A DNA stretch of 64,000 nt. Origin: Rubrobacter calidifluminis. Its GTDB lineage: Bacteria; Actinomycetota; Rubrobacteria; Rubrobacterales; Rubrobacteraceae. A program made the position numbers and the translations under genes. The notes beneath the pieces were generated by a model. The model was not told the DNA's origin and did no database searches. It saw nothing but the letters and a program-made list of their open reading frames with translations. Positions 1 to 16,891 of the stretch are shown here, piece by piece. The stretch covers positions 1 through 64,000 of the forward strand of contig NZ_JAQKGV010000015.1 in assembly GCF_028617075.1 (NCBI RefSeq), read 5' to 3'. Numbering within the stretch: position 1 is the first letter of the stretch; each line of letters starts with the position of its first letter.

Positions 1-2
1 TG

Positions 3-425: not shown

Positions 426-506
426 TGGAAGCCGCTAAAAATGAGGACATGATACTGATCATACTACCATCTTCGCGACTCTATGGACAGAGAAAGGAGC
501 ACTGAA

Positions 507-1984: not shown

Positions 1985-2697
1985 CTTCTCAAGAGGATAA
2001 AACTGCCCGGCGGGTTCGGACGGCTGATGACAATACTCGTCTACCCGATCGTCGGATCCATCGTGGGGGCGCTCTGATATAGTCGTGCTCGGCCAGCCCA
2101 TCGCCTCTGCCACGGATTCTCTGCAGAGGTGGTTGAAGAACCTCCAGGGCGCAAACGCCATCTTGCTCGGTGTGATCCTCGGCGCGATGATGGCCTTCGA
2201 CATGGGCGGGCCAGGAACAAGACCGCCTACGCCTTCGCCATCGCAGGACTGGCGGGCGGCGCGTTCGGACCGATGGCCGCGGTGATGGCCGCCGGGATGA
2301 CCCCGCCGCTGGGGCTCGCGCTGGCTACCCTCCTGCGTCCCGGGCTCTTCACCCGGGCGGATCGGAGCAACGGACAGGCCAGCTGGATCATGGGAACCTC
2401 TTTCATCACCGAGGGGGCAATCCCCTTTGCCGCGGCCGACCCGCTGCGCGTGATACCTTCGAACATGGTAGGCTCGGCGGTGGCCGGGGCGCTCTCGCTC
2501 GTGTTCGGTTGCACCCTGCGGGCGCCCCACGGTGGTATCTTCGTGATCGGCTCGTCGGACACTGGCCGCTGTGCCTGCTGGCGATCGCCGCGGAACCGTC
2601 GTGGGTGCGGTTCCCGTGATCGCGGCCAAGCAGTTCACCGGCGGCGCCGACAGGAAGGAGGAGAGCGCGGGCAGGACAAGGGAGGTGGTCGCCTCCT
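1985..2697 (+). pseudogene. Fructose-type PTS EIIC remnant, multiple frameshifts
   Basis: This is a degenerate C-terminal half of a fructose-family PTS permease (EIIC). The homologous pieces are spread over changing frames: KLPGGFGRLMTILVYPIVGS (about 2000-2075), then [19 protein letters not shown] through [19 protein letters not shown] (2085-2215), then [19 protein letters not shown] through [18 protein letters not shown] and [14 protein letters not shown] (2215-2545), then a last piece, [12 protein letters not shown] (2600-2640). The MMAFDMGGP and [15 protein letters not shown] motifs are hallmarks of fructose EIIC. At least three frame changes and the missing N-terminus mean no functional permease is made. 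It precedes intact HPr and EI genes, so a former fructose PTS operon has lost its membrane component here. Confidence 0.8.
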
Positions 2698-2773: not shown

Positions 2774-3034
2774 ATGTTCGAACGCGAGGTGTCCGTGGTA
2801 CCGAAGGCTGGCCTGCACTCCCGGCCCGCGGCGAGGTTCGTGAAGACGGCCAGGGGTTTCAGGTCGGACATAGTGGTTGTGAAGGACGGCAACGAGGCCA
2901 ACGCCAAGAGTCCCATCAGACTCATGACGCTCGGCGCAAAGTGCGGCGATCGGGTCACGATCCGGGCTACCGGCGAGGACGAGCGGCAGGCGGTCGAAGC
3001 CCTCGCCGAGATCATCTCTAAAGAGGAGGAGTAG
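2774..3034 (+). CDS. ptsH: Phosphocarrier protein HPr
   Basis: An 86-residue HPr. It is the soluble phosphocarrier that accepts phosphate from enzyme I at His15 and passes it to EIIA domains. The active-site stretch [12 protein letters not shown] places the phosphorylated His exactly at position 15. Ser46 ([13 protein letters not shown]) is present, so regulation by an HPr kinase is possible in principle. Length and fold markers match the family. The ATG at 2774 follows the ribosome site AAGGAGGA; another ATG at 2770 is in a different frame. It lies 3 nt before the EI gene, so the two are clearly one operon. The EIIC remnant upstream is broken, so HPr must act with EII proteins encoded elsewhere or in a regulatory role. 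Confidence 0.93.
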
Positions 3035-3037
3035 GGC

Positions 3038-4675
3038 ATGGCCGGCAGGCGTGTTACCGGGGTCGCGGCCTCGGAGGGCGTTGCGGTGGGACCCCTCTTC
3101 CGCTACCGTCCCCAGAGGCTCGAACCCGAGCGTACTTCGATCCGCGAGGAGGACGTCGGGCGGGAGGTAGAGCGCTTTCACGCAGCGGTGGAGAGGGTCG
3201 CGCGGAGGATCTCCCAAACCAGGGAAGAGCTCGAGAGGCGTGGATCCTCCGAGGAGGCCGGGATCCTCGAGGCGCACGTGGAGCTTGTAAAAGACCCCGA
3301 GCTCTCCTCGGAGGTGGAGAGGAAGATAAAGGAGGAGCTGAAAAGCCCCGAGGTCGCCCTGCTCGAGAGTGCAGAGGAGTTCGCCAAGCTCTTTGAGGGA
3401 ATGGAGGATGAGTACCTGAGAGCCCGGGCCGATGACGTGAGGGACGTCTCCCACCAGATAGCCTCCGAGATCATGGGCGTCTCCTCTTCTTCGCTCTTCT
3501 CGCAGATGGAGGGACCCTCCGTCGTCGTGGCGCAGAACCTTACCCCTTCGGAGACGGCGACGCTCCCGAAGGAGAAGGTTCTCGCCATCGTGACGGCTGA
3601 GGGTTCGAAGACCTCCCACGTCGCGATCATGGCCCGCTCGATGGGCATCCCGGCCGTCGTGGGGCTTGGAGGCGAAGCCGTCGAAGAGCTCTCTACGGCC
3701 TCCGTCGTGGCCGTAGACGGAGGAGAAGGCTACGTGGTGGCAGACCCGGACCCCGAGGAGCTAACCCTCTTCGAAGAGAAGGAGCGTCGGGCGAGCGCCG
3801 AGAGGGAATCGCTCGAGACCTTCCGGCACGTCCTGGCCAGGACCAGAAGCGGCAGGCGCATAGAGGTCTCTGCCAACCTCGGCTCGCCCGGAGAAGCCGA
3901 GGAAGCCCTCAGGTGGGGGGCCGAAGGGGTGGGGCTCTTCCGCACTGAGTTTCTCTTCATGCAGCGGGAGAGCCTGCCGGAGGAAGAGGAGCAGTACGAA
4001 GCCTACGCCACGGTGGCAAGAACCTTCTCCGGCAGACCCGTCATCGTGCGCACCCTCGACGTGGGAGGAGACAAAGAGCTCCCCGGCATAGACCAACCCG
4101 AAGAGGAGAATCCCTTTTTAGGCTGGCGGGGGATAAGGATGTCCCTCGACGAGCCGGAACTCTTCAAGATACAGATAAGAGCGCTGCTCAGGGCCGCCAC
4201 GGAAGGCGACCTCAAAGTCATGTTCCCCATGGTCACGGGGGTGGAGGAAGTCAGGAAAGCCAGACGACTGATAGAAGAGTGCGAGAGAGAGCTCGAAGCG
4301 GAGGGAAAGCCAAAAGGGGAGCTCGAAGTCGGGGTTATGATAGAGACCCCTGCAGCGGCGCTGTGCGCGAAAGAGCTTGCGCGGGAAGTCTCCTTCTTCT
4401 CGATAGGCACGAACGATCTCGTGCAGTACACCCTGGCGGCCGACAGGGGCAACGAGAAGCTCAAGAGCCTCTACCGGGCCGATCATCCGGCGGTCCTGAA
4501 GCTGATCGAGATGAGCTGCCGGGCGGCGGAGGAAGAGGGGATATGGGTTGGGGTGTGCGGGGAGGCAGCCTCCGACCCGGATCTCATCCCCACGCTGGTG
4601 GAGCTCGGGGTGAGCGAGCTCTCTATGAGCCCTCCTTCGATCCCCAGGGCCAAGAAGGTGGTTTCGGAACTGTAG
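3038..4675 (+). CDS. ptsI: PTS enzyme I (phosphoenolpyruvate-protein phosphotransferase)
   Basis: A 545-residue cytoplasmic enzyme I that autophosphorylates from PEP and phosphorylates HPr. The N-terminal HPr-binding helical domain is followed by the swivelling His domain (GSKTSHVAIMARSMGIPAVVG, active His194) and the PEP-binding barrel. In the barrel, GLFRTEFLFM, the DVGGDKELPG loop, the metal-binding segment SIGTNDLVQYTLA and the acid-base Cys507 (GVCGEAASDP) are all present. Length is slightly below the usual ~570. It sits 3 nt after ptsH. Its last ~106 bp recur at 15043-15151 downstream of the P450 gene, which suggests a rearrangement anchored at this 3' end. Confidence 0.95.
   Translation: MAGRRVTGVAASEGVAVGPLFRYRPQRLEPERTSIREEDVGREVERFHAAVERVARRISQTREELERRGSSEEAGILEAHVELVKDPELSSEVERKIKEELKSPEVALLESAEEFAKLFEGMEDEYLRARADDVRDVSHQIASEIMGVSSSSLFSQMEGPSVVVAQNLTPSETATLPKEKVLAIVTAEGSKTSHVAIMARSMGIPAVVGLGGEAVEELSTASVVAVDGGEGYVVADPDPEELTLFEEKERRASAERESLETFRHVLARTRSGRRIEVSANLGSPGEAEEALRWGAEGVGLFRTEFLFMQRESLPEEEEQYEAYATVARTFSGRPVIVRTLDVGGDKELPGIDQPEEENPFLGWRGIRMSLDEPELFKIQIRALLRAATEGDLKVMFPMVTGVEEVRKARRLIEECERELEAEGKPKGELEVGVMIETPAAALCAKELAREVSFFSIGTNDLVQYTLAADRGNEKLKSLYRADHPAVLKLIEMSCRAAEEEGIWVGVCGEAASDPDLIPTLVELGVSELSMSPPSIPRAKKVVSEL
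4570..4675 (+). repeat. Direct repeat, copy 1: 3' end of ptsI
   Basis: These last ~106 bp of ptsI are repeated in the same orientation at 15043-15151. By hand alignment 94 of 106 positions match (about 89%), with one 3-nt insertion in the distal copy. The intact gene owns this copy. Confidence 0.85.
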
Positions 4676-4766
4676 AGAAGACACTTTAAATTCATGCCTT
4701 CGCTGTCGTGCCACGTACGTTCGGAGAGTGTGTTCTTGCCAGAGGAGGAACCGGGCATTGAACGAT

Positions 4767-5090
4767 CTATTTGTTTGACTCTTCGAGCCTCTGAATACGG
4801 CTTTCAAGATACTCCAATCTACGCCGCATTCCTTCCGCATCGTGTTCATCGGCGAGACCGGCGCTGCGCAGCCCCTGGCGCGCGAAGATCTCCAGGAGAT
4901 CTCGCGACCCCTCGGAGAGTGAGTTGAGCTGTGAGATGAGGGCCTTTGCCCCGTGGTTTCCTCCAGACTCTTCCAGCTCCACGCGCCCCAGTTCCACGAG
5001 CACGTTCACCGTCATCTGCACCCGCTCTCGCAGCGCCGAGACGGCTCCGGCCTGCAGCAAGAGCATGCGCTCCAGAAACGACTCTGGCAT
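4767..5090 (-). CDS. Hypothetical helical protein, last gene of the UbiB operon
   Basis: A 107-residue protein without a domain I can name. It is almost entirely helical by composition. The first ~80 residues are amphipathic, with no membrane segment. The tail, MRRRLEYLESRIQRLEESNK, is a short coiled coil of leucine heptads. The neighbour at 6918-7307 ends in a very similar coiled-coil tail, so the two small proteins may pair or share a partner. It lies 28 nt downstream of the UbiB-family kinase gene on the same strand. A phasin-like or scaffold role is conceivable but unsupported. It is convergent with ptsI, with 91 nt between the stops and no clear terminator. Confidence 0.6.
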   Translation of the reverse strand: MPESFLERMLLLQAGAVSALRERVQMTVNVLVELGRVELEESGGNHGAKALISQLNSLSEGSRDLLEIFARQGLRSAGLADEHDAEGMRRRLEYLESRIQRLEESNK

Positions 5091-5118
5091 GAATTCTCCT
5101 TTCTCCTCTGGTGTCTCT

Positions 5119-6876
5119 TTAACGTCTGCGAGTGCGGAGCAGCTCCCTGGCGCCGAGGTACAACAGCGGGGACGCGATGGTGGAGATCGCGAGCCGGTTC
5201 ATGCCCTTCTTGATGTCTCTGGAGATCTTCCTGAGGTCCCTTATGGAATCTTCGGAGATCCTGTACTCCTGCTTTATCGAGAGGTCGTTCCACGCAAGGC
5301 GCTTGAAGATCTGGTTCATGCGCCGGGGAAAGGTGGAAACGAGCTCCCCCAACTCGCCGACGAGGCTTGCGTTGGCCCGGTAGTTGAAGCGGCGCATGAG
5401 GATGCTGCGCATTATCTGAACGTCTGCGCTCTCGACCAGGGCGTGGTATGAGACCTCGGGACAGAGCCAGCGGGCTGTGCCTTCGGCGGCGGTGAACCCT
5501 TTCGTCCACAGCGCGAGCCCGGTCGGGATGCGGCAGTGGTTCTGCATCCCGATCCTGATGGAACTCAGAAGCAGGTTCCCCCAGTTGTAGTTGCTGGACT
5601 GCGGGCTGTCCACATACCTCATGTACATCCCACGCCACTGGTCCTTGAGCTTGGAGAGGTTCGTGTACTTCGTCGGCTCGATGATCTCGGCGCAGATCTC
5701 CGCCGCGTCGGAGCACTGGTTGAGCCGGATGTGCATCAGAAAGCGGAAGATCGCCTCGGTATGCACGGCGTCCATGCGCCCGATCATCCCCCAGTCCACG
5801 ACGACGGCATCCTTGGTGTGCCGGTCTATGAGGATGTTGGAGGCGTGCGGATCGGCGTGGTACTCGCCGCTCAGGAAAGCGTAGACGTAATAGTGTGCGA
5901 GGTCGGTCATCCGCTGCAGCCGCTCCTCGAAGGTGAGAAAGTCTACCGGGAACTCCGTGAGATCCCAGCCGTCCACGAACTCCATCACCAGCACACTCCG
6001 GGTGTACAGATGCACGTCGGGGACCCGCACCGTCTCGAACTGGTGCTCCTCGAGTATGCGCCGGGCCCGCCCCATCGCCTCGGCCTCGGCGGTCATGTCG
6101 AGCTCTTCCATCGAGGAACTGTAGTACTCGCCGACGAGGCCGGGGAGATCGAGAGAGAGAGCCACGGGCGCGGGGAGCAGCTTGTGGAGTCGTTTTGCGA
6201 GAAACCGGATCACGGTGATGTCGGTGTTGAAGAGCTCCCGGACACCGGGACGTATCACCTTCACGGCGACCGGGGTTCCGTCGCGCAGCTCTGCTCTGTA
6301 GACCTGTGCCAGCGAGGCAGATCCGATGGGATTTTCATGATCTATGTACCGGAAGGTGCCGAGCCCTTCGGGGAGCTCTCTCTCGATGACGCTCGCCAGG
6401 TATGGGAACGGCATCGGGGGAATGTAGTCGAGGAGCTTCGAGAGCTCGGTGGTGATCTGCTCGGGCAGTATCTCTTGCCGGGTAACCAAGACCTGCCCGA
6501 GCTTGATGAACGTCGGCCCGAGTTCTTGGAAGGCGAGCCGGAGTCGCACCCCGATCTTCTCCAGAGAGTCGGCTCTACCCTCGACGGGTCTCTTCCCAGC
6601 TCCGAACGCCCCGGCGAGGGAGCTGTCCCTGAGCAAATACAGCAGCCCGTGCCTGGCGAGGACTCGTGAGATCTCCCGGAATCGCCCGATTCGGGTTATG
6701 CTCGCGCGTACTTCGTCGAGTTCGGCCTCAATTTCTTCCACTAACTCGGGCGTGAACTCATCCAGAGTGACCCTGTCTCGGGACCGGTCGAGCTTGAACC
6801 CGCTACTCCACGATCCCGTCCGATCCCACCCGTTCGAGCGGAAGACGGCGTTGTCTTGCGTCTCCATCTCAGGCAC
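5119..6876 (-). CDS. ABC1/UbiB (AarF) family atypical kinase
   Basis: A 585-residue member of the UbiB/ADCK atypical kinase family, which supports quinone or lipid metabolism through ATPase activity. The family-defining KxGQ motif is visible in GPTFIKLGQVLVTRQ (around residue 125), with the Ala-rich nucleotide loop in GSASLAQVYRAELRDGTPVAVKV, the HADPHASNILI catalytic loop (around 340) and VDWGMIG in place of the usual DFG (around 360). The C-terminus has a hydrophobic stretch that may anchor it to the membrane. The GTG at 6876 follows a strong AAAGGAGGAGG a little far upstream; the ATG at 6867 is an alternative. It is in a same-strand run with an SCP2 lipid carrier and two small helical proteins, which favours a lipid or isoprenoid role. 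Confidence 0.9.
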   Translation of the reverse strand: MPEMETQDNAVFRSNGWDRTGSWSSGFKLDRSRDRVTLDEFTPELVEEIEAELDEVRASITRIGRFREISRVLARHGLLYLLRDSSLAGAFGAGKRPVEGRADSLEKIGVRLRLAFQELGPTFIKLGQVLVTRQEILPEQITTELSKLLDYIPPMPFPYLASVIERELPEGLGTFRYIDHENPIGSASLAQVYRAELRDGTPVAVKVIRPGVRELFNTDITVIRFLAKRLHKLLPAPVALSLDLPGLVGEYYSSSMEELDMTAEAEAMGRARRILEEHQFETVRVPDVHLYTRSVLVMEFVDGWDLTEFPVDFLTFEERLQRMTDLAHYYVYAFLSGEYHADPHASNILIDRHTKDAVVVDWGMIGRMDAVHTEAIFRFLMHIRLNQCSDAAEICAEIIEPTKYTNLSKLKDQWRGMYMRYVDSPQSSNYNWGNLLLSSIRIGMQNHCRIPTGLALWTKGFTAAEGTARWLCPEVSYHALVESADVQIMRSILMRRFNYRANASLVGELGELVSTFPRRMNQIFKRLAWNDLSIKQEYRISEDSIRDLRKISRDIKKGMNRLAISTIASPLLYLGARELLRTRRR

Positions 6877-6917
6877 TTTGAGAACTCGCCTCCTCCTTTT
6901 CCCTCTCCACCCGCTCT

Positions 6918-7307
6918 CTAACGGGGCTTCGTGTCTTGATCGGCTCCCCGCTCGATGACCTCGCGCAGTGAACGAACCTCTTCTTCTAGCCGCGCAATCC
7001 TTTCCTCGAGCTTGCCGCTCTCCCGATGCTCCTCTTCTCTGCGCTGAGAACGCCAGCGCATGTAGAGCTCATAGAGTGTGAGAAGGCTCTTGTCCTCAAG
7101 TACCGCGTCCTGGAAAGCGTCTTCTATGGTCTCCTTGTGTCCGTAGTCGCCGTGGTCGGCCCCATAACGAAGATGCTTCTCCATGAAGCGGTCTATCTGT
7201 GGGTTGTTCGGACCGCCGCTCTGCCGGAAGAATGCCTCGATGCGCTGCTGCATCGTGAGCCTCTCCTGGCTGCGGAGCTGCTCGACCCGGTCTGCTCGCT
7301 CCTCCAT
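6918..7307 (-). CDS. Hypothetical protein with C-terminal coiled coil
   Basis: A 129-residue soluble, charged protein of unknown function. The middle (NPQIDRFMEKHLRYG and LLTLYELYMRWRSQ) is helical and the C-terminus, KLEERIARLEEEVRSLREVI, is a clear coiled coil. It sits between the SCP2 gene (8 nt away) and the UbiB kinase gene (41 nt away) on the same strand, so translation is probably coupled. The similar coiled-coil tail of the 107-residue protein at the end of the operon suggests partner proteins. No signal peptide or membrane segment is seen. The ATG at 7307 has only a weak ribosome site, consistent with coupling to the upstream gene. Confidence 0.65.
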   Translation of the reverse strand: MEERADRVEQLRSQERLTMQQRIEAFFRQSGGPNNPQIDRFMEKHLRYGADHGDYGHKETIEDAFQDAVLEDKSLLTLYELYMRWRSQRREEEHRESGKLEERIARLEEEVRSLREVIERGADQDTKPR

Positions 7308-7315
7308 GATCCAGA

Positions 7316-7759
7316 CTACCCCTGAAATCCCACCGGAAGCTGCTCCCTGGGTACCCGCTCATAGACCCTCTGGGCCGCGCCGAGCAACTCCCTCGCCCCC
7401 TGAATGTTCGAAGAGAGCCTGCCCCGATCTCCTTTAACCGCCTTCATCTGACCGCGCACGAGCGCCCGCGCTATGTCGAGCCGCCCGTCGAGCAGGCTCT
7501 TCCAGACCTCCGGCGTCGCGGTGATGGTGTAGGGCGCAGATTCGATATCTTCTGCCGTGGCGATCCGGGCCTCCTTACACTCCCCACCGGAGAGCTCCAG
7601 ATATGCCGAGACCTCTTCTTCTACTCCCATGGCCGGATCAGCCTGCATCGTCAGCACGATAGGTTCATTCCAGTCTCTACCCACATCCCTGTAGGTGTCG
7701 CTGTTGTTTATCTCTTTGGCCCATTCCTTCACCCACTCGTCCGAGAAGATTCCTTTCAT
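7316..7759 (-). CDS. SCP2 sterol-binding domain protein
   Basis: A 147-residue single-domain SCP2-like lipid carrier. The fold markers are the beta-rich N-terminal half (PIVLTMQADPAMGVEEEVSAYLEL), the YTITATPEVWKSLLDGRLDIARALVRGQMKAVKGD segment typical of SCP2 proteins (residues ~80-115), and the C-terminal helix. Such proteins bind hydrophobic ligands in a tunnel. The ATG at 7759 has a GGGGAGG ribosome site. It leads the three-gene UbiB run. The alpha/beta hydrolase 68 nt upstream is on the same strand and may share the transcript. No catalytic domain is attached, so it probably presents lipids to partners. Confidence 0.85.
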   Translation of the reverse strand: MKGIFSDEWVKEWAKEINNSDTYRDVGRDWNEPIVLTMQADPAMGVEEEVSAYLELSGGECKEARIATAEDIESAPYTITATPEVWKSLLDGRLDIARALVRGQMKAVKGDRGRLSSNIQGARELLGAAQRVYERVPREQLPVGFQG

Positions 7760-7827
7760 TGAACCGACCTCCCCGTTCAGTAGAAGGCATCGGATGATAA
7801 CCTAAAAGGGTAAAGTATCGTATGTGT

Positions 7828-8715
7828 TTAGGTTCTGTCAAGAGCGAGGGATTCCTCGAGCAGGCCAAGGATCGCGTCGTTTACTACATGTGGCTCTTCG
7901 TGCTGGAGCCAGTGGGTGGCGTTGGGGAGCATGATGAGCTCGGCGCGGTCGCAGAATCTGATACTCTCACGGGCGAGTTCTTTGACGAGGAAGTCGTCTC
8001 GCTCACCCCAGATGACTCTGGTGGGGGCTTTGACGCGCGGATCTTCGGGGATCGGGGGAGCGTGGCGCACGAGCGCCCGGTACCAGTTGAGCATTCCCTG
8101 GAAGGCCCCATCTCTCTCCCAGGCCTCGCGGTACTCGTCGAGGTCGGATCTCGAGAAAGCATCCGACCGGCTGCTAGCGAGGAGCGCCTGCCGCAGGATG
8201 CGCCAGCCGGTAAGCCGCGAGACGGCCTCGGGAAGATACGGGAGCTGGAAGAGCGCGATGTACCAGCTGTACACCATCTGCGACGGTCTGGCCGGCAGAA
8301 GCTGGCTGAACGCCAGCGGGTGCGGTGCGTTCAGTATCACGAGCCGCTCCACGACCGAAGGCTGCCACAGTGCGAGAAACCAGGCTACGACTCCACCGAG
8401 GTCGTGGCCCACCACAGTCGCGCTGCTTCTTCCACACTGCTCTATCAAGACCCGCACGTCGTCGACCAGCTCCTCCATCCGGTACTCCCAGACCCAGCGC
8501 GGCTTATCAGAGAGATTGAACCCCCGTTGATCCGGAACCACCACTCGACACCCCGCTGCAGCCAGCGCCGGGATCTGCTCCCGCCACCCGTACCAGAACT
8601 CCGGAAACCCATGCAACAAAACTACCATGGGCCCATCCTCCGGACCGGCCTCCACTACATGCAGTCTCACTCCCACGGAAATTCCCACATGCCGAAACGT
8701 CGCCTCAACTTCCAT
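7828..8715 (-). CDS. Alpha/beta hydrolase, epoxide-hydrolase type
   Basis: A ~295-residue alpha/beta hydrolase with the features of soluble epoxide hydrolases. The oxyanion-hole motif HGFPEFWYGW is near residue 35, the nucleophile is Asp (GHDLGG, about residue 104) rather than Ser, and the catalytic His lies in NATHWLQHEEP (about 267). A cap region rich in Tyr and Trp (QMVYSWY) could supply the ring-opening tyrosines. Haloalkane dehalogenase is an alternative, because the Asp nucleophile is shared. A start at 8763 is possible; 8715 is preferred for its GAGGGAGAGGG upstream. It is divergent from another hydrolase at 8876, with a shared AT-richer control gap at 8764-8870. It may detoxify or process epoxides formed by the neighbouring oxygenases. 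Confidence 0.88.
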   Translation of the reverse strand: MEVEATFRHVGISVGVRLHVVEAGPEDGPMVVLLHGFPEFWYGWREQIPALAAAGCRVVVPDQRGFNLSDKPRWVWEYRMEELVDDVRVLIEQCGRSSATVVGHDLGGVVAWFLALWQPSVVERLVILNAPHPLAFSQLLPARPSQMVYSWYIALFQLPYLPEAVSRLTGWRILRQALLASSRSDAFSRSDLDEYREAWERDGAFQGMLNWYRALVRHAPPIPEDPRVKAPTRVIWGERDDFLVKELARESIRFCDRAELIMLPNATHWLQHEEPHVVNDAILGLLEESLALDRT

Positions 8716-8875
8716 CCGTCGCCCTCTCCCTCGTAACCATCCGTGTAGTTGACCTGCTCCCATCCTGAAGTTATCATCAGATTACCACAGATAGATCATT
8801 TTATAGCGCGAGATTTCCTGTATTGAGAGGGGTGGCGGAATCGTAGGAAAGATCTTTCGGGGCATAAGGGAGGGT

Positions 8876-9781
8876 TTGGGGATCGGGGATCTCCCGGCGC
8901 GGGAGGTAGAGCGCAGGTACGCCGATTCGGCTTCGCGGTTTATGGAGTTGGGTGAGGCGCGGGTGCACTACAAGGACGAGGGGAGAGAGGGAGCCCCCGC
9001 GCTTCTTCTTCTGCACGGCACCTTCTCGTCGCTGCACACGTGGGATGGATGGGTCGATAGGTTGAGGGACCACTACCGGATGGTGAGGCTGGACATCCCT
9101 GGATTCGGCCTCACCGGGCCGCCGCGAGGGGGTCGCTTCACGATTGAGTGGATGGTGGGTTTCATAGACGACTTCACCGAGGAGCTGGGTTTGGAGAGGT
9201 TTCACGTCGCCGGTAACTCGCTCGGAGGATATTTCGCGTGGCGCTACGCCGCCGAGCGCCCCGGGAAGGTCGATCGTCTGGTGCTCGTGGACGCGGCGGG
9301 CTATCCCATGCCGCTGCCGCCGATCTTGAAGTTCATCGCCACTCCCGTGCTGGGGTCCAGCTACAGAGTGCTCTCGCCGCGCTTTCTGGTCGAAGCTAAC
9401 GTCAGGCAGGTCTACGGGGACACGCGCAGGATAAGAGATCACGTCGTGGAGAGGTACCACCTGCTCATGCTACGTGAAGGCAACCGGAGGACGCTGAAAG
9501 AGAACCTGCCGCACCTGAGCAGGTTCGAGGATTTCCGGCGCGTCAGAGACGTGCGCGCCCCCACCCTCGTAATGTGGGGAGAGGAGGATCGCTGGATCTC
9601 CCCCTCCATGGCGCGCAGGTTCATGCGAGATCTCCCCCAGGCCAGGCTCGTCACCTACCCCGGTGTAGGGCACGTCCCGATGGAAGAGATCCCTGAGCGC
9701 ACCGCCGATGACGCGCACGCGTTTCTGAGTGGTTCCGCGGATCTCGCACGGCAGGCAGGCTCAGAGAAGGAGAGAGAGTGA
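8876..9781 (+). CDS. Alpha/beta hydrolase (serine type), first gene of oxidative operon
   Basis: A 301-residue alpha/beta hydrolase. It shows LLLLHGTFSSLHTWDGW (oxyanion hole), DIPGFGLTGPP, the Ser nucleophile in GNSLGG (Ser115) and the catalytic His in PGVGHVPMEE (around 265), so it is an esterase or lipase-like enzyme. It overlaps the next gene by 4 nt (GTGA) and opens a five-gene run ending in a Baeyer-Villiger monooxygenase and a P450. An ester made by the Baeyer-Villiger enzyme would be a logical substrate. The TTG start is only 1-2 nt from AAGGGAGGG, an awkward spacing; ATG at 8942 is the alternative but lacks a ribosome site. Confidence 0.88.
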   Translation: MGIGDLPAREVERRYADSASRFMELGEARVHYKDEGREGAPALLLLHGTFSSLHTWDGWVDRLRDHYRMVRLDIPGFGLTGPPRGGRFTIEWMVGFIDDFTEELGLERFHVAGNSLGGYFAWRYAAERPGKVDRLVLVDAAGYPMPLPPILKFIATPVLGSSYRVLSPRFLVEANVRQVYGDTRRIRDHVVERYHLLMLREGNRRTLKENLPHLSRFEDFRRVRDVRAPTLVMWGEEDRWISPSMARRFMRDLPQARLVTYPGVGHVPMEEIPERTADDAHAFLSGSADLARQAGSEKERE

Positions 9782-11130
9782 AGGCCGGATCCACCTCCCC
9801 GCGCAGGAGATACTGCATCGTAGGAGCCGGGTACTTCGGACTCGGCGCGGCGAAGGCTCTACGAGACGACGGAGTCCCTTACGACCATCTCGCCGGGGGC
9901 AACGGCGTCGGGAACACTCTGACGGAGACACTCATGGCCACCTCTTCGAAACGGTCCATCGAGCACCCCGATTACCCGGTCCCCGAGGAGTGGCCGGAGT
10001 TCCCCGGCGAGGGGCGGATACGCGCCTACCTGAGAGATTTCGCACGGGAACACGACCTCGACGGGAAGATAGAGTTCGGGCGAAGCGTAAAAGGAGCGCG
10101 ACCGCTCGATGGCAGAGACGGACACAGCGGGTGGCGGCTGGAGCTGGAGGACGGCGAGATACGGCACTACGCCGGCATCGTCCTCACCGAGGCGCGCACG
10201 CAGAAACCCCGGGTGGACCTCCCCGGTCATTTCTCAGGCAAGCGGGTTTACGCCACAAACGAAGAAGAAACCAGAGATCTCGAAGATGAGAGGGTGCTCG
10301 TCATTGGAGACGGCAACCTCGCCTGCGCCATCGCCACCAGGATAGGACGACGCTCCAGGAAATGCTACGTCTCCACCAGGGGCGGTTCTCTCCTTCCGGA
10401 GACGCTGCTCGGCGTGCCTCTCTCAGAGCTCGAGGAACGGCTGTGGTGGCTCTCCGACGAGCGGTTTCTGGGGCGGCTCGTCGGGCCTCTCTCCCGTATG
10501 ATCTTGAGAGATCAACCACCGTCACGGCTCCTGCGACGCGATCTTTTGGAGGAACCAATCGTCAGCTCCGAAGCCCTGCACCAGATACGACGCGGCGCTC
10601 TCGAAGTGAAGCCGGAGGTCGCGCGCTTCGATGGCGAGGACGTTCACTTCGTCGACGGAAGCGTCGCCGCGGTGGATGCCGTCGTCCACGTCCCCTCGGA
10701 GAGAGACGTCGCGCTCCCCGTGGGCGAAGAGCTCTTGAAGTACGAAAACGGCGTTCCGGTGCGCGTCGGGTCCGTCTTCCTACCGGGTCTGACCAACTGC
10801 TACCTCTTCGGGCCCCTGATCACACGCGGAGGAAGCGGTCGCATCATCTCCGAGGGCAGCGAAGTCCTCGCCAGAGCGATACGAGCTCAGGAAGAGTTGA
10901 GCCACCCCCTCGTCGAGGATCTCGCGCGCATGTGGCCGCCGGACTCGCGCCTCCCTCTGAGCCCGGCCGCCGTACTGCGCGAGATACGAGCGCTGCGACG
11001 CTGCATCGATGGGATAGTCCTCTACGGCCGCTTCAGAGGGTACACGGCAGGCATGCCGCCCGCGATACCACCGGCTCCCGCGCAGCACGAAAACGCTTCA
11101 ACGGCACGGAAGGAGGCCCTCAGCACATGA
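9778..11130 (+). CDS. Flavin-containing monooxygenase-like protein, divergent signature
   Basis: A 450-residue protein with two dinucleotide folds arranged as in flavin-containing monooxygenases: CIVGAGYFGLGAAKAL (FAD, residues ~13-28) and VLVIGDGNLACAIATRIG (NADPH, ~175). The family fingerprint FxGxxxHxxxY is degraded: the matching segment is PGHFSGKRVYATNEE, where the expected His is absent. The usual GGxW after the first fold is also missing. It may be a flavoprotein that no longer forms the peroxyflavin, or a subfamily with other chemistry. Translation is coupled on both sides: GTGA overlap with the hydrolase and ATGA overlap with the SDR. It differs from the canonical monooxygenase at 12079 in the same operon. 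Confidence 0.75.
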   Translation: MKAGSTSPRRRYCIVGAGYFGLGAAKALRDDGVPYDHLAGGNGVGNTLTETLMATSSKRSIEHPDYPVPEEWPEFPGEGRIRAYLRDFAREHDLDGKIEFGRSVKGARPLDGRDGHSGWRLELEDGEIRHYAGIVLTEARTQKPRVDLPGHFSGKRVYATNEEETRDLEDERVLVIGDGNLACAIATRIGRRSRKCYVSTRGGSLLPETLLGVPLSELEERLWWLSDERFLGRLVGPLSRMILRDQPPSRLLRRDLLEEPIVSSEALHQIRRGALEVKPEVARFDGEDVHFVDGSVAAVDAVVHVPSERDVALPVGEELLKYENGVPVRVGSVFLPGLTNCYLFGPLITRGGSGRIISEGSEVLARAIRAQEELSHPLVEDLARMWPPDSRLPLSPAAVLREIRALRRCIDGIVLYGRFRGYTAGMPPAIPPAPAQHENASTARKEALST

Positions 11131-12047
11131 GACTCAGGCCATCAGCGGAGTTTCTCGCCCGGGCTCTGGGCGCGGCCGCCGGCGCGGCGATAAAGCGCTC
11201 CCCCTCAAGACGACTCTCTTTCGCCGCCCTCGGGGCGCTCTCTTCCCTCGCGGCTGGAGAGCGGCCCGCTCGGATCCCCCTGCGGGGCATGAGGGTCGTC
11301 ATCACCGGGGCCTCCGGCGGCGTGGGCAGGGCCACCTGCGAGGCCCTGCGCAGAGAGGGGGCGCGCGTCGTCGGCATCGACCTCTCCCCCGGAGAAGGCA
11401 CGATTTTCGGCGACGTGACCAGCAGAGAGAGCATCGAAGCCGCGATCGAAGAGGCGGCGCGATCCCTCGGCGGGATCGACATCCTCATCAACAACGCCGG
11501 GATAGGTCGCGGAGCGGACGCTGGAGATTTTCCACAGGAAGAAGCGTACAAGACGCTGGAGGTCAACCTGTTCGGGGCGTGGAACACCACCGCCGCCGCC
11601 CTTCCGCACCTCTTGAAGAGCGGAGGCCACGTCGTCAACGTCTCCAGCGGCCTCGCCATACTCAACGTCCCCTACGCCGCCCCCTACGCCGCCAGCAAGC
11701 GCGCTCTCGCAGCGTATTCCGACGCGTTGCGCCTGGAGTACGCCGGGCGCATAACCGTCAGCACCATCTACCCCGGCTACATGAAGACACCCATCCATGA
11801 CGTCGTCGAGTCGCAGAACGCCTCCCTGGATGGCCTGGTGCCCGAAGAGCCCGTCTCCAACGCCGCGGAGGCCGTGGTGAGCGCGTGCAAGACACGCGCA
11901 CGCGACGTCTTCACCAGCTTCACCGGGCGCGCGGGGCTCGCCCTGGCCCGTCACTTCCCGGCGCAGGCCGACGCGGTCGTCAGGAGCCGGTTCGAGAAGA
12001 TGCTCGAGAGCCGTCCGCTCCCGAGCTTCGTCAAGAACGCCCCGTGA
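11127..12047 (+). CDS. Short-chain dehydrogenase/reductase
   Basis: A 306-residue classical SDR with an N-terminal extension of ~50 residues before the Rossmann fold. It shows TGASGGVG (cofactor), NNAGIG, the catalytic Ser (VNVSSGLA) and YAASK. The acidic residue after beta-2 (VVGIDLSPGEG) suggests NAD(H) preference. The ATG at 11127 follows AAGGAGG and overlaps the upstream stop by 4 nt. In this operon an SDR would interconvert an alcohol with the ketone that the Baeyer-Villiger enzyme uses. The extension (PSAEFLARALGAAAGAAIKR) is Ala-rich and could bind membrane; it has no signal-peptide cleavage site that I can see. Confidence 0.9.
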   Translation: MRLRPSAEFLARALGAAAGAAIKRSPSRRLSFAALGALSSLAAGERPARIPLRGMRVVITGASGGVGRATCEALRREGARVVGIDLSPGEGTIFGDVTSRESIEAAIEEAARSLGGIDILINNAGIGRGADAGDFPQEEAYKTLEVNLFGAWNTTAAALPHLLKSGGHVVNVSSGLAILNVPYAAPYAASKRALAAYSDALRLEYAGRITVSTIYPGYMKTPIHDVVESQNASLDGLVPEEPVSNAAEAVVSACKTRARDVFTSFTGRAGLALARHFPAQADAVVRSRFEKMLESRPLPSFVKNAP

Positions 12048-12078
12048 TGGAAAGTAAGATCGAGGAGGTTCCAGGCCC

Positions 12079-13629
12079 GTGCAGACCGTGAGCCATCAGG
12101 ATACCGCGGATCGGAGAGACAGCGAAGGCTTCGAGGAGGTCGTGGACGTCGCCGTCGCCGGCACCGGCTTCGCCGGGCTCGGGATGGCCATCCGCATGAA
12201 GCAGGAAGGTCTCCACGACTTCGTTCTGCTGGAGCGTGCCGACGAGGTCGGCGGGACGTGGCGGGACAACACCTATCCCGGAGCCGCCTGCGACGTGCCG
12301 AGCCACCTCTACTCGTTCTCCTTCGCGCTCAACCCGGAGTGGAGCCGCAAGTTCTCCCCGCAGGAGGAGATACAAGAGTACCTCCGCCGGTGTGCCAGGG
12401 AGTACGGGATCATGCCCCACGTCCGGTTCGAGAGCGAGATCCTCTCGGCGGACTGGGACGAGGAGCTCCGCCGCTGGGAGATAGAGACCACCCGCGGACG
12501 CGTCTTCGCGAAGGTCTTCGTCTCCGGCATGGGGGCCCTGAGCGACCCTTCGTTTCCAGACGTCCCCGGCCTCGAAGATTTCGAAGGCCATTACTTCCAC
12601 TCCTCGCAGTGGGACCACGACTACAACCTGAAGGGCAAGCGAGTCGCCGTGGTGGGAACCGGGGCCTCGTCCATCCAGTTCGTCCCCCAGATACAACCCC
12701 TCGTCGAGAGCCTGCACGTCTTTCAGCGCACGCCGCCGTGGATCATCCCGCGTCGGGATCGGGGTTTCACGAGGCTCGAGAAGTGGGCGCTCAAGAGTGT
12801 ACCGGGGCTGCAGAAGCTCCTCAGGTCGGGGATCTACTGGGGACGGGAGAGCTACGTCCTCGGCTTCAGCGTAGACACGCGGTTCATGAAGGCGATAGAG
12901 CTGCTCGCCAGAGCTCATCTGCATCGCCAGGTTCCCGACCCGGAGCTGCGCGAGAGGCTCACCCCGGACTACACCATAGGCTGCAAGCGCATCCTCCTCG
13001 CCGACGACTACTACCCTGCCCTGATGCAGCCCAACGCCGAAGTGCTGACCGAAGGTCTCGCAAAGGTCGAAGGCTCCACGGTAGTGGGGTCCGGGGGCAG
13101 CAGACGTGAGGTCGATGCGATCATCTTCGGAACCGGCTTCCTGATCCACGACCTTCCGGCCTCCCACAGGATACGGGGGCGGGGCGGCACGCTCCTCGCA
13201 GACGTCTGGCGCGAAGGCACCGAAGCGTACAATGGGACGACCATCACCGGGTTCCCGAACCTCTTCTTGCTGCTCGGTCCCAACACCGGCGTCGGACACA
13301 CCTCGCAGGTGTACATGATCGAGAGCCAGATCGAATACGTACTCTCCTGCCTGAAGATGCTGGAGAGGCGCGGTGCGGAGACGCTGGAAGTACGCGAAGA
13401 GGTTCAGAGAGACTACAACGACCGTCTCCAGAGAGCTTTGCGCGGGACGGTGTGGACGTCTGGAGGATGCCGTAGCTGGTATCTGGATGAGAGGGGGCGC
13501 AACTACACCCTCTGGCCCGGCTTCACCTGGCGCTTCAGGCGCATGACCCGGGAGGCCGATCCCGCCGACTACGTCCTGGAAGGGAGACTCTCAACGAGCA
13601 GGCGTACGAGGAGGCCGGTCGCCCTGTAG
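12079..13629 (+). CDS. Baeyer-Villiger-type flavin monooxygenase
   Basis: A 516-residue class B flavoprotein monooxygenase. All the diagnostic motifs are present: the FAD site VAGTGFAGLGMA (residues ~27-38), GGTWRDNTYPGAACDVPSHLY with its FAD-stacking segment, the Baeyer-Villiger fingerprint FEGHYFHSSQWD (about 168-179), and the NADPH fold VVGTGASSIQF (~191). It would oxidise a ketone to an ester or lactone with NADPH and O2. GTG at 12079 has GAGGAGG upstream. It is 31 nt after the SDR and 59 nt before the P450. An SDR, a Baeyer-Villiger enzyme and a serine hydrolase in one run suggest an alcohol-ketone-ester-acid degradation route. Substrate unknown. Confidence 0.93.
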   Translation: MQTVSHQDTADRRDSEGFEEVVDVAVAGTGFAGLGMAIRMKQEGLHDFVLLERADEVGGTWRDNTYPGAACDVPSHLYSFSFALNPEWSRKFSPQEEIQEYLRRCAREYGIMPHVRFESEILSADWDEELRRWEIETTRGRVFAKVFVSGMGALSDPSFPDVPGLEDFEGHYFHSSQWDHDYNLKGKRVAVVGTGASSIQFVPQIQPLVESLHVFQRTPPWIIPRRDRGFTRLEKWALKSVPGLQKLLRSGIYWGRESYVLGFSVDTRFMKAIELLARAHLHRQVPDPELRERLTPDYTIGCKRILLADDYYPALMQPNAEVLTEGLAKVEGSTVVGSGGSRREVDAIIFGTGFLIHDLPASHRIRGRGGTLLADVWREGTEAYNGTTITGFPNLFLLLGPNTGVGHTSQVYMIESQIEYVLSCLKMLERRGAETLEVREEVQRDYNDRLQRALRGTVWTSGGCRSWYLDERGRNYTLWPGFTWRFRRMTREADPADYVLEGRLSTSRRTRRPVAL

Positions 13630-13688
13630 AGACAGGACGTATCTTTCACAGTTTTCGGAAGCTGCAGCGAGCCGCCAGGAGGAGATAG

Positions 13689-15071
13689 ATGTCAGGGAAA
13701 GTCCCGCCGTTCTGTCCGGAGTTCATGGTCGTGGCCTCGCGCGACCTGCTCAGAGGGCTCGAAAGGGCACGAAAATACGGCGATATCGTGCGCACGAGGG
13801 TGCCGGCTTCTCTGTGGCTGATCTTCGATCCGGACGCCATAGAGGAAGTGGTCGTCAGGAAGAACAAGAGCTTTCGCAAAGGCGTCGTGGAGAAGAACAG
13901 CCTATCGTACATGGGCAACGGCCTGCTCACCAACAATGGAGACTCGTGGCGGCGAAACCGCCGTCTCATGCAACCAGCGTTCCACAGAAAGAAGATCGAG
14001 GCCTACGCCGAGACGATGGTTCGCTGCGCGGAGGAGATGCTCGAGGAGTGGGTGCCGGGCCGAGAGATCGACCTGCACGAAGAGATGATGGCCGTGACGC
14101 TGCGTATCATCAACCTGACGGCGTTCGGCGCGGACGTGAAAGAGAGCGCGGAGGCCGTGAGCCGCGCCCTCCTGCCAATCGGCGACAGGCTGGAGGGGCC
14201 GGGGCGCAACATGTACCCGCTCCCCGAGCGTATCCCCACCCCGACGAACCTCCGCTACCGCCGGGAGATGCGGCGTCTGGACTCGATCATCCGCTCCATC
14301 ATCGATGACAGACGACGCGCCGGAGACGCCGGAGAGCGGGATGACCTGCTCTCCATGCTGCTCTCCGCCCGTTACGAAGACACCGGTGAGGGGATGAGTG
14401 ACGATCAGATACGCGACGAGGTGATGACGATCTTCCTCGCCGGACACGAGACCACCGCCAACGCCCTGACGTGGGCCTTCCACCTTCTCGCCGAGAATCC
14501 GGAGTCGGACGAGCTCCTCTCCAGAGAGGTGCAGGAGGTCGTCGGAGAGCGCGAGCCGAACTTCGCCGACGTCCCGAAGCTCCGCTATGCCACGGCGGTC
14601 TTCAAGGAATCCATGCGCCTCTATCCCCCGGTCTTCGCCTTCACCCGTGAAGCTGCGGAAGACGTGGAGATCGGCGGCTACACCATGCCGGCAGGTACCG
14701 AGGTCGTCGTGAGCCAGTGGGTCACGCATCGGGACCCGAAATTTTTCTACGAACCCAGGACGTTCAGACCGGAGCGGTGGCTGGACGGATCAACCGGGGG
14801 ACTTCCCAGATATGCCTACTTCCCCTTCGGAGGGGGGCCCCGGCAGTGTATCGGCAAGCCCTTTGCGGAGATGGAGGGGCCTCTGATTATGGCCTCGATA
14901 GTCCGACGCTACAGGCTTTCCTACAGGGAACCCGGACAGGAGGTCAGACTGCGTCCCGCCGTCACGTTGCGTCCCTCCTTCGGTCCGGACAACCGCTACG
15001 GGCTACCCCCTATGGTGCCAGAAGGACGGGTTGCAAGACGGTCTCCGGTCCGGATCTCATCCCCACGTTAG
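13689..15071 (+). CDS. Cytochrome P450
   Basis: A 460-residue soluble P450. It shows the I-helix oxygen-activation motif AGHETT (near residue 250), ExxR in KESMRLYPP (~306) and the heme loop FPFGGGPRQCIGKPFA with ligand Cys387. The overall look (RIINLTAFGADV, FRPERW) is close to the bacterial relatives of CYP4/CYP102, which hydroxylate fatty acids or alkanes, so a long-chain substrate is plausible. ATG at 13689 follows AGGAGG. No ferredoxin or reductase gene is adjacent. The last ~10 codons read into the duplicated ptsI 3' fragment at 15043-15151, so the C-terminal tail was probably re-made by that rearrangement. Confidence 0.93.
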   Translation: MSGKVPPFCPEFMVVASRDLLRGLERARKYGDIVRTRVPASLWLIFDPDAIEEVVVRKNKSFRKGVVEKNSLSYMGNGLLTNNGDSWRRNRRLMQPAFHRKKIEAYAETMVRCAEEMLEEWVPGREIDLHEEMMAVTLRIINLTAFGADVKESAEAVSRALLPIGDRLEGPGRNMYPLPERIPTPTNLRYRREMRRLDSIIRSIIDDRRRAGDAGERDDLLSMLLSARYEDTGEGMSDDQIRDEVMTIFLAGHETTANALTWAFHLLAENPESDELLSREVQEVVGEREPNFADVPKLRYATAVFKESMRLYPPVFAFTREAAEDVEIGGYTMPAGTEVVVSQWVTHRDPKFFYEPRTFRPERWLDGSTGGLPRYAYFPFGGGPRQCIGKPFAEMEGPLIMASIVRRYRLSYREPGQEVRLRPAVTLRPSFGPDNRYGLPPMVPEGRVARRSPVRISSPR

Positions 15072-15151
15072 TGGGGCTCGGGGTGAGCGGGCTCTCTATG
15101 AGCTCTCCTTCGATTCCCAGGGTCAAGAGGGTGGTTTCGGGGCTGCCGTAG
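15043..15151 (+). repeat. Direct repeat, copy 2: orphan ptsI 3'-end fragment
   Basis: This is a same-orientation copy of the last 106 bp of ptsI (4570-4675) with 12 mismatches and one extra codon before the stop. In the ptsI frame it still reads GPDLIPTLVGLGVSGLSMSS and then SPSIPRVKRVVSGLP followed by TAG. It has no upstream ptsI sequence and overlaps the last codons of the P450 in another frame. It is therefore a relic, not a gene. Together with the intact copy it brackets 10.4 kb. Confidence 0.85.
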
Positions 15152-15157
15152 GGTTCT

Positions 15158-16330
15158 TCAGCCGAGCAGGCTCTCTCCCGGCAGCCCTCCGCGGTCCGCG
15201 CCGAGCCAGGCGGCGACCGTCGCCCCGACGTCCGAGAATCCCCGGCGCACGCCGAGCGGGCGCGCCTTCCCGCTGGCGTCCGCCAGGAGCAGCGGCACCC
15301 GCTCGCGGGTGTGGTCGGTGCCGCGGAAGGTCGGGTCGTTGCCGTGGTCGGCGGTGACGATGAGGAGGTCCTCTTCGCCGAGGGTCTCCAGGATCTCCGG
15401 GAGGCGCCGGTCGAAGCGCTCCAGGTTCTCCGCCATCCCCTCCGGGTCGCGCCGGTGGCCGTACTTGGCGTCGAAGTCGACCAGGTTGGCGAAGACGAAG
15501 CCCTTCTCGAGATCGCCGAGCGCCTTGAGCACCGCGTCCACCTTCGCCATGTCGTCCGGTTTGCCGGGGAGGTGGCGGGTTATCCCCCGGCCGTCGAAGA
15601 TGTCGTAGATCTTACCCACGGCGACGACCTCCCTCCCCGAGGCCTCCACCCTGTCCAGATAGGTCTCCCCGAAGGGCTCGATGCCGTAGTCGTGGCGGTT
15701 CTCGTTCTCCCGCTCGTAGGAGCCGGGCTCTCCGTGATAGGGGCGGGCGATGACCCGCTCGACCATTATCCTGCCCTCGCCGATGAGCATACGGTGGGCC
15801 TTCTCGCAGGCCGCGTAGAGCTCCTGAAGCGGGATCACACCGGTGTGGGCCGCGACCTGAAAGACCGAGTCGGCGGAGGTGTAGACGATCCAGGCGCCCG
15901 TCCTCTCCTGCTCTGGCCCGAGCTCCTCTATTATCTGCGTGCCGGAGGCCGGGCGGTTGCCGATCACCCTCCTCCCGGTCTCCCGTTCGAAACGGGAGAT
16001 GATCTCCTCCGGGAACCCCTCGGGGTAGGTGGGGAGCGGCTCTTCCAGCACGAGCCCCATCATCTCCCAGTGGCCGGCGAGCGTGGCCTTCGCCGCCGAG
16101 CGCTCGGTCATGAGGCCCCAGGAGGCCCGGGGCTCTTCGGTTGGAGGCACTCCTTCCAGCTCCAGGACGTTGCCGAGCCCGAGGGAGGCCAGGTTCGGCA
16201 GCCTGAGGCCGCCCACGGCCCGGGCGGTGTGGGCCAGCGTGTTCGCGCCCTCATCGCCGAACCTGGCCGCGTCGGGAGCGTCTCCGACCCCGACGCCGTC
16301 CAGCACGATCACGGTGGCCCTGCGTCCCAT
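15158..16330 (-). CDS. deoB: Phosphopentomutase
   Basis: A 390-residue phosphopentomutase of the alkaline-phosphatase superfamily. It interconverts (deoxy)ribose 1-phosphate and 5-phosphate in nucleoside salvage. It shows the N-terminal metal site VIVLDGVGVGDAPDA, the GANTLAH segment with the phosphorylated Thr, the substrate-binding region GNRPASGTQII, and the metal ligands in DFDAKYGHRRDPEG and VTADHGNDPTFRGTDHTRE. The length matches the family (~390-400). The ATG at 16330 follows AAGGAGGG. It is convergent with the P450 and stands alone on this strand. The nucleoside-linked partner genes are not next to it in this window. Confidence 0.95.
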   Translation of the reverse strand: MGRRATVIVLDGVGVGDAPDAARFGDEGANTLAHTARAVGGLRLPNLASLGLGNVLELEGVPPTEEPRASWGLMTERSAAKATLAGHWEMMGLVLEEPLPTYPEGFPEEIISRFERETGRRVIGNRPASGTQIIEELGPEQERTGAWIVYTSADSVFQVAAHTGVIPLQELYAACEKAHRMLIGEGRIMVERVIARPYHGEPGSYERENENRHDYGIEPFGETYLDRVEASGREVVAVGKIYDIFDGRGITRHLPGKPDDMAKVDAVLKALGDLEKGFVFANLVDFDAKYGHRRDPEGMAENLERFDRRLPEILETLGEEDLLIVTADHGNDPTFRGTDHTRERVPLLLADASGKARPLGVRRGFSDVGATVAAWLGADRGGLPGESLLG

Positions 16331-16399
16331 GTCCCTCCTTGCGGTACCATCTAGCTGACGTATCGGAAAGAATATCAGGGCCTGGAGATTTCTTGCGAG

Positions 16400-16891
16400 A
16401 TGGGTCTGACCTCTGAGACGAAGACCACGGAGGGTCGGGTGCGCGACGCCCGGGCCGAGGATGCCGGGGTCCTCTACGAGCTGGCCTGCGAGCTGGCGAG
16501 GGCTGTTGGAGACGTGGAGCCGCCGCAGGGGGCGGTGAGGGAGAGGCTGCTCGAGCTTCTGGAGGAGCCGCGGGCCCGGGTCTTCGTGGCCGAGCTCGGG
16601 TGTGGCGTCGTCGGGGCCGCGAGCGCCTGGGTGAAGCCGGATCTCGCCCACGGCGACCGGGTGGTCGAGGTGCCGATGCTCGTCGTCTCGCAGGAGTACC
16701 GGCGCAGGGGGTTCGGGAGGCTCCTGATCGAGGCGGTGAAAGAGCTCGCTCTCGCGAGCGGGGCCTCGCTCATCGAGCTGGTCGCCACGAAGGACAACAG
16801 GAGCGCCCGCAACTTCTACCGGACGATGGGCTTCGTCGAGACCGAGCACGTGGCGCTCGAGTACGTCGGCGACCTGCGCGAGACCTCCTAA
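16400..16891 (+). CDS. GNAT-family N-acetyltransferase
   Basis: A 163-residue GNAT protein. The acetyl-CoA pyrophosphate loop is seen in VVSQEYRRRGFGRLLIEAVKELA (residues ~97-118), followed by the C-terminal signature TKDNRSARNFYRTMGFVET. One domain fills the protein. The acceptor substrate cannot be inferred. It is divergent from deoB, and its stop codon overlaps the stop of the facing membrane-protein gene in the 4-nt CTAA at 16888-16891. No strong ribosome site precedes the ATG at 16400. Confidence 0.88.
   Translation: MGLTSETKTTEGRVRDARAEDAGVLYELACELARAVGDVEPPQGAVRERLLELLEEPRARVFVAELGCGVVGAASAWVKPDLAHGDRVVEVPMLVVSQEYRRRGFGRLLIEAVKELALASGASLIELVATKDNRSARNFYRTMGFVETEHVALEYVGDLRETS

Follow-up and report, generated by a model that had tools for sequence, protein, structure and literature searches.

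How did the 3′ end of ptsI come to stand twice, 10.4 kb apart, in the genome of Rubrobacter calidifluminis? The question arises from a stretch of 64,000 nucleotides (hereafter designated the window) at the start of contig C15 of this genome (3.09 Mb in 54 contigs; the source genome), where the last part of the gene for enzyme I (EI) of the phosphotransferase system (PTS) recurs next to a gene that we take to be deoB, the name coming from recognition and from an earlier reading of the window made without database searches (hereafter, the sequence-only reading). We found that the downstream copy is the native end of ptsI, displaced and decaying, and that the DNA between the two copies, which carries genes of oxidative metabolism, is missing from this place in relatives. 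The explanation that we consider likely as a whole combines a variable interval, an insertion before the end of ptsI, a decaying copy of the gene tail, and exchange of the tract by homologous recombination.

The displaced 3′ end of ptsI

The direct repeat, located at 4563–4672 and 15036–15145 (spacing, 10,473), was the single direct-repeat family within positions 3000–17000. Its best local segment in blastn was 98 bp long with 89.8% identity (E, ~3e-33 in a search of the 64-kb window, where nothing else scored nearly as high). At full extent it comprised 111 bp on the same strand (hereafter designated copy 1, at the end of ptsI, and copy 2, beside deoB; Table 1), with 95 of 111 positions identical and 16 different, confirming the recurrence claimed in the sequence-only reading. 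When the whole source genome was searched with the repeat, strong matches were found at these two places only; a third match (38 bp, 84%) at C1:249341 was rejected as a further copy, since it looks like a chance match and sits inside a different gene, which from its translation presumably encodes a B12-binding methylmalonyl-CoA-mutase-like protein. A full second EI gene was also ruled out as the origin of the fragment, the source genome having one EI gene above the family cut-off.

The two copies end differently. Copy 1 closes with CTG TAG (protein end SEL-stop) and copy 2, as in the congeners, with CTG CCG TAG (SELP-stop), both being natural ends in other genera: the SEL-stop of copy 1 is seen in many of them, and the LP-stop of copy 2 is common to G001 and G002, the two other genomes of the same genus compared, and to G011, a genome of another genus. 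Moreover, copy 1 is followed on its 3′ side by DNA of the block, and copy 2 by CCG TAG and the 3′ end of deoB, matching G001 and G002. The native ptsI end and the deoB junction both belong to copy 2, which is the displaced native end in its native place. The alternative offered in the sequence-only reading, that a ptsI-linked segment had been duplicated and then mostly deleted, is not needed with copy 2 in this place.

A comparison of synteny, set beforehand as the check, agreed with an insertion. In three of the 10 relatives whose ptsI neighbourhood was examined (G001, G002, and G011), ptsI abuts deoB without the block, and the remaining seven have no deoB in the examined stretch around ptsI. 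In G001 and G002, the DNA corresponding to positions 3059–4672 and 15036 onwards of the window is contiguous, and the two repeat copies align with one and the same 110-bp stretch (L038 3542–3651 and L039 3656–3765, respectively). Because the relatives have the empty site, we infer that the 10.4-kb block was inserted between ptsI and deoB.

Decay of copy 2

Private changes of copy 2 were counted against copy 1 and G001, amino-acid changes were counted from the translations, and outgroup conservation was counted over 25 rows (L032, short and broken, was dropped, and L033 gave no match). Copy 2 contains 12 private changes in 111 bp, distributed 4:6:2 over the codon positions; nine of them are nonsynonymous, and five hit sites that are invariant in all 25 outgroup rows. 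Because nine of the 12 changes alter the protein, it is concluded that copy 2 is a relic decaying without selection. The differences between copies 1 and 2 fall 4:7:5 on the codon positions, as against 2:1:12 between copy 1 and G001 (Fisher p 0.011), the latter being the pattern of a working gene. A copy derived from another species would be expected to differ from its partner mainly at silent third positions. No such dominance is seen, so the two were probably almost the same at the time of their formation.

All 16 differences between the copies are transitions (P ~1e-4 against the source–G001 backbone). This fits unconstrained decay, and we regard it as usual for DNA free of constraint in this region; a special mutation mechanism in copy 2 was considered and dropped, as a fruA-like remnant 5′ of ptsI has a similar spectrum between the source genome and G001 and, taken as the reference, gives the 16 transitions in 16 a P of 0.08. 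Decaying DNA in this region changes mostly by transitions, the transition-to-transversion counts being 23:4 in the remnant (window 2363–2570 vs L097 10448–10654), 16:0 between the copies, and 236:174 in the backbone. As for age, the 12 changes exceed the number predicted at assumed rates of 2–5% per branch (P 4e-6 to 1e-2), where backbone values at 4-fold degenerate sites would imply 1 to 4%; measured against the remnant as a clock (27 differences in 204, ~7 expected per branch), the excess has P 0.07. The scar is not recent.

Divergence steps in ptsI and deoB

Comparison of the source genome with G001 revealed a changepoint in ptsI at 3667, the sequences differing by 3.5% over ~3059–3666 and by 10.6% over 3667–4672, with a likelihood ratio that was reached in none of 500 codon shuffles. 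A second step was found in the 3′ end of deoB at ~15194, where the differences drop from 8/48 to 34/1137. Divergence at 4-fold sites was low in hutH (2.0%), an acyl-CoA ligase gene (6.0%), a thiolase-like gene (4.6%), deoB (7.9%), a GNAT gene (4.1%), an ABC gene (3.4%), and the 5′ part of ptsI (7.1%), and high in the 3′ part of ptsI (25.6%), deoA (13.8%), a nucleoside-phosphorylase-like gene (24.4%), and its neighbour (21.3%). Because the stretch from ~3667 to ~15194 is more diverged from the congener than both sides, these data suggest that it may have been exchanged as a tract by homologous recombination through ptsI and deoB.

Between G001 and G002, the last 0.6 kb of ptsI is 100% identical, and the part before it differs by ~10%; ptsI has recombined in this pair too. 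Separately, the 5′ part of ptsI in G002 (L039 2152–3150) lies ~10% from G001 though both flanks are 98–99.7% identical, which marks a separate import.

Contents of the inserted block

The features of the locus are collected in Table 1. Ten open reading frames (ORFs) cover 96% of the block, which by Pfam and phmmer matches holds a minus-strand UbiB operon (UbiB, the sterol-carrier-protein-2 (SCP2)-like protein, and two small proteins with no family match) and a monooxygenase/P450 operon. Pfam and NCBIfam scans found no integrase, transposase, or mobility gene in the ten ORFs, extending the remark that no integrase was visible, and the block has no terminal inverted repeat word longer than 6 bp. 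A transposon was rejected on these grounds together with the size of the duplication, 111 bp rather than short. The P450 ORF continues into copy 2, ~13 codons past the end of its paralogue on contig C26 of the source genome, according to the alignment. For the second flavin monooxygenase and the P450, the best NCBIfam names, far below cut-off, come from pentalenolactone-type terpenoid pathways; oxidation of a terpenoid or a cyclic ketone as the function of the block can only be guessed from such names.

Table 1 Features of the ptsI–deoB locus in the window
Feature	Position	Strand	Basis
fruA-like fructose-PTS permease remnant	2363..2572	+	85-86% DNA match to G001:C9:88447-88653, G002:C76:6798-7006; reading frame broken
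HPr gene, directly 5′ of ptsI	2774..3034	+	PF00381 E 9e-28
ptsI (enzyme I), intact, mosaic	3038..4675	+	TIGR01417 572 bits
Copy 1, functional ptsI 3′ end	4562..4672	+	Repeat match, codon pattern
Inserted block between copies, 10.36 kb	4673..15034	.	Absent between ptsI and deoB in G001, G002, G011
107-aa ORF	4767..5090	-	No family match
UbiB/ABC1 atypical kinase	5119..6876	-	PF03109 E 6e-43
129-aa ORF	6918..7307	-	No family match
Sterol-carrier-protein-2-like protein	7316..7759	-	phmmer to 2cx7 E 1.3e-16, 1wfr E 1e-16
Alpha/beta hydrolase	7828..8763	-	PF00561
Alpha/beta hydrolase	8876..9781	+	PF00561
Flavin monooxygenase-like protein	9778..11130	+	PF00743
Short-chain dehydrogenase (SDR)	11127..12047	+	PF00106
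Flavin monooxygenase, possibly Baeyer-Villiger type	12079..13629	+	PF00743; best NCBIfam PtlE-like, far below cut-off
Cytochrome P450, last ~13 codons within copy 2	13689..15071	+	PF00067 E 8e-91
Copy 2, decaying ptsI 3′ end	15035..15145	+	12 private changes
End of native ptsI (last codon and stop) and deoB junction	15146..15157	+	Common to G001/G002
deoB (phosphopentomutase)	15158..16330	-	Name from the sequence-only reading and recognition

A comparison of GC content inside and outside the block, which the sequence-only reading had recommended, gave a divided result: the third-codon-position GC of 0.72–0.85 inside lies below the 0.88–0.92 of the deoB side, but a low value is seen in ptsI as well (0.79; G001, 0.83–0.84). 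A DNA search with the whole block revealed no second copy in 39 family genomes, only partial matches; the long ones are 64–77% identical, the best lying on C26 of the source genome and its counterparts in G001 and G002. There, a second hydrolase/monooxygenase/P450 cluster (L099, source C26, 2957–15311; L100; L101), related to that of the block at 67–77% identity, is orthologous in all three genomes of the genus. In the source genome, the C26 cluster is extended by additional DNA with an SDR-like segment (L099 ~3740–4592) that is missing in both congeners. Among 396 genomes of the phylum, a search with UbiB at E ≤ 1e-80 found the source gene only, a threshold that leaves room for more distant relatives, and its ten best plasmid relatives among the matches listed are just 25–30% identical.

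The wider deoA–ptsI–deoB interval

Insertion at the 3′ end of ptsI, as first proposed, holds in so far as the block is absent in relatives; because the region 5′ of ptsI also differs in the congeners, a single clean insertion there is not the whole story. DNA-level matches 5′ of ptsI to G001:C9 or G002:C76 are limited to the fruA-like remnant, which we name by recognition (Pfam gave just HPr for that ORF). The HPr gene, which is 5′ of ptsI in six of the 10 relatives examined, is not so placed in G001, G002, G011, and G012. In G001 and G002 the order is deoA, fruA-like remnant, an operon that we take from its translations to be a glucitol-type PTS with a regulator, presumptive E1/E2 genes, ptsI, and deoB; in G011 the arrangement is compact, with deoA, ptsI, and deoB close together. 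The deoA side of the source genome lies on contig C20 (14054–24350), preceded at C20:1–14054 by genes for an ABC transporter, an IS110-family transposase, RraA-like, DHDPS-like, and glyoxalase/dioxygenase-like proteins, and two aldehyde dehydrogenases. Contigs C20 and C15 begin with the same 427 bp (99%; window 1–427 and G000:C20:1–427), part of an ABC-transporter permease gene; this is probably a repeat left unresolved, at which the assembly broke off between deoA and ptsI. We infer that the two contigs adjoin and that deoA and ptsI are linked in the source genome. The flanks deoA and ptsI–deoB enclose three different contents, those of the source genome, of G001 and G002, and of G011.

Two further observations concern this interval. 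The frame-broken fruA-like remnant extends over ~1950–2660 beside intact HPr and ptsI genes, matching G010 and G005 at 70–75% DNA identity and being shorter in G001 and G002. The IS110-family transposase gene on C20 (L104 3158–4210) lies within the presumed deoA–ptsI interval.

Origin of the duplicated ptsI tail

In the explanation that we prefer, deoA–ptsI–deoB would be a variable region of the genus whose content turns over by homologous exchange via the flanking genes, as the divergence steps suggest. DNA of 10.4 kb with the UbiB/SCP2 and monooxygenase/P450 operons would have entered just before the end of ptsI, leaving the observed duplication of the 111-bp tail: copy 1 completes the working gene, and copy 2 beside deoB is the displaced native end, its changes marking decay without selection since then. 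Initially the DNA probably came in through an illegitimate or single-crossover event rather than site-specific integration, and the tract ~3667–15194 may later have been acquired in this genome, or removed from the congeners, as a single homologous segment.

Several points weigh against this explanation. Only two congener genomes enter the comparison, and the window begins at a contig end, so that the interval cannot be followed continuously on its left. The genes on C26, away from the locus, are mixed in 4-fold divergence (flavin monooxygenase, 4.5%; P450, 13.3%), so raised divergence is not unique to the interval; moreover, the 3′ divergence of ptsI could stem from import in G001 and G002 instead. 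A four-taxon site count with G011 on the 111 bp, made by hand, is weak (copy 1 with copy 2, four sites; copy 2 with G001, two; copy 1 with G001, none). Finally, the age estimates disagree, the assumed rates making copy 2 look older than the split from G001 and the remnant clock giving only P 0.07.

Three routes would yield the anatomy of the scar, namely, capture at a staggered break with target duplication, integration of a circle by single crossover, and homologous recombination on one side with an illegitimate joint on the other. The last, that is, homology-facilitated illegitimate recombination, is a tentative candidate, possible though doubtful. Linear DNA would have paired with ptsI by homology at its left end, and an illegitimate joint would have connected its right end to the ptsI tail, making copy 1 the donor's and copy 2 the native end. 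ptsI indeed resembles G001 closely as far as 3667 and departs from it thereafter, the SEL-stop of copy 1 is that of many other genera and the LP-stop of copy 2 that of G001, G002, and G011, and the mechanism is described, with joints mostly of 3–10 bp, in PMC3240628. The systems treated there resemble the locus in that foreign DNA is joined within a gene and part of the gene is duplicated, and differ from it in that here the original event is not observable. The same paper gives deletions as the general product, and at 11 sites copies 1 and 2 agree with each other and differ from G001, whereas a native copy 2 would be expected to be close to G001 at silent sites.

Single-crossover (Campbell) integration, which we judge unlikely, would have involved a circle on which the 111-bp ptsI tail separated the end of the P450 from the UbiB operon, and would give exactly the anatomy seen. 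In a conjugation test in Escherichia coli, most of the recombinants examined had part of the target gene duplicated, not the deletion expected of one-sided recombination, a result attributed to single crossovers (PMC3240628). Against this route, the circle would need a nearly identical ptsI tail, the block holds no replication or transfer gene in the Pfam and NCBIfam scans, and the plasmid relatives of UbiB mentioned above are distant.

The history might also run the other way: the block would have been present in the ancestor of the genus, G001 and G002 would have lost it when DNA lacking the block took its place, and the window would preserve the older arrangement; this, too, seems rather improbable. 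The identity of G001 and G002 in the 3′ part of ptsI, set beside their difference in the 5′ part, is a sign of import in that pair, and the decay of copy 2 is not recent; but the block is likewise missing from G011, a member of another genus, and the search of the 39 family genomes found it in no second place.

Genomic islands and integrative and mobilizable elements that insert at the 3′ end of a gene leave direct repeats of the gene tail, a restored gene, and an empty site in relatives. The locus is like them in all three respects, and the changed end of the restored gene (SEL-stop vs SELP-stop) would fit as well. A decayed element of this kind, with ptsI as attachment site, copy 1 restoring the gene, and the integrase lost, is one form of the origin that the sequence-only reading had put first, and we regard it as quite unlikely. 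Such elements differ from a 96%-coding block that holds no integrase or mobility gene, leaves no room for an integrase, and has a second repeat copy in decay. The junction, moreover, coincides with the final codons of the P450, whose reading frame continues into the repeat; an element-borne copy would need to come from nearly the same ptsI, as there is no third-position excess between the copies; and no literature on ptsI as an attachment site was found, judged by titles and abstract openings.

Capture at a staggered break by Ku-dependent end joining was rejected, as Ku (PF02735) is missing in all four genomes searched (source genome, 96% complete; Ku was found in one of 14 genomes in the control), a result that covers present-day genomes and classical end joining. 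It is very improbable that the ptsI tail is a reusable docking point of the genus, with blocks entering and leaving via the ptsI end, EI rebuilt each time, and copy 2 as an inherited docking or excision site.

Relation to integrase-free hotspots

According to Oliveira et al. 2017 (PMC5635113), horizontal-transfer hotspots without mobile elements show more recombination in the flanking core genes, and double homologous recombination in those genes diversifies them. The locus resembles these hotspots in its fixed flanking genes with differing contents in related genomes, in a block without an integrase, and in the raised divergence of the genes beside the variable part. It differs from them in that three genomes of one genus are compared here and many strains of one species there, in that one insertion keeps its duplication scar, and in the presence of an IS110-family transposase elsewhere in the interval (C20). 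The divergence steps and 4-fold contrasts would point to excess recombination in the flanks, but in this comparison of three genomes the off-locus P450 is also raised. Collectively, by analogy of anatomy among the three genomes compared, the locus is probably an integrase-free hotspot of horizontal gene transfer of this kind. Judged by titles, no paper on genomic islands of the Rubrobacter group was found in a literature search.

The general picture is unchanged by this locus, which is ordinary in kind, does not look like a new mobile element, and has an unusually legible junction. Next to a gene central to sugar uptake, the sequence preserves the two junctions of an insertion and, in the decaying tail, its clock, and the locus illustrates how catabolic operons may be acquired in the absence of mobile-element genes.

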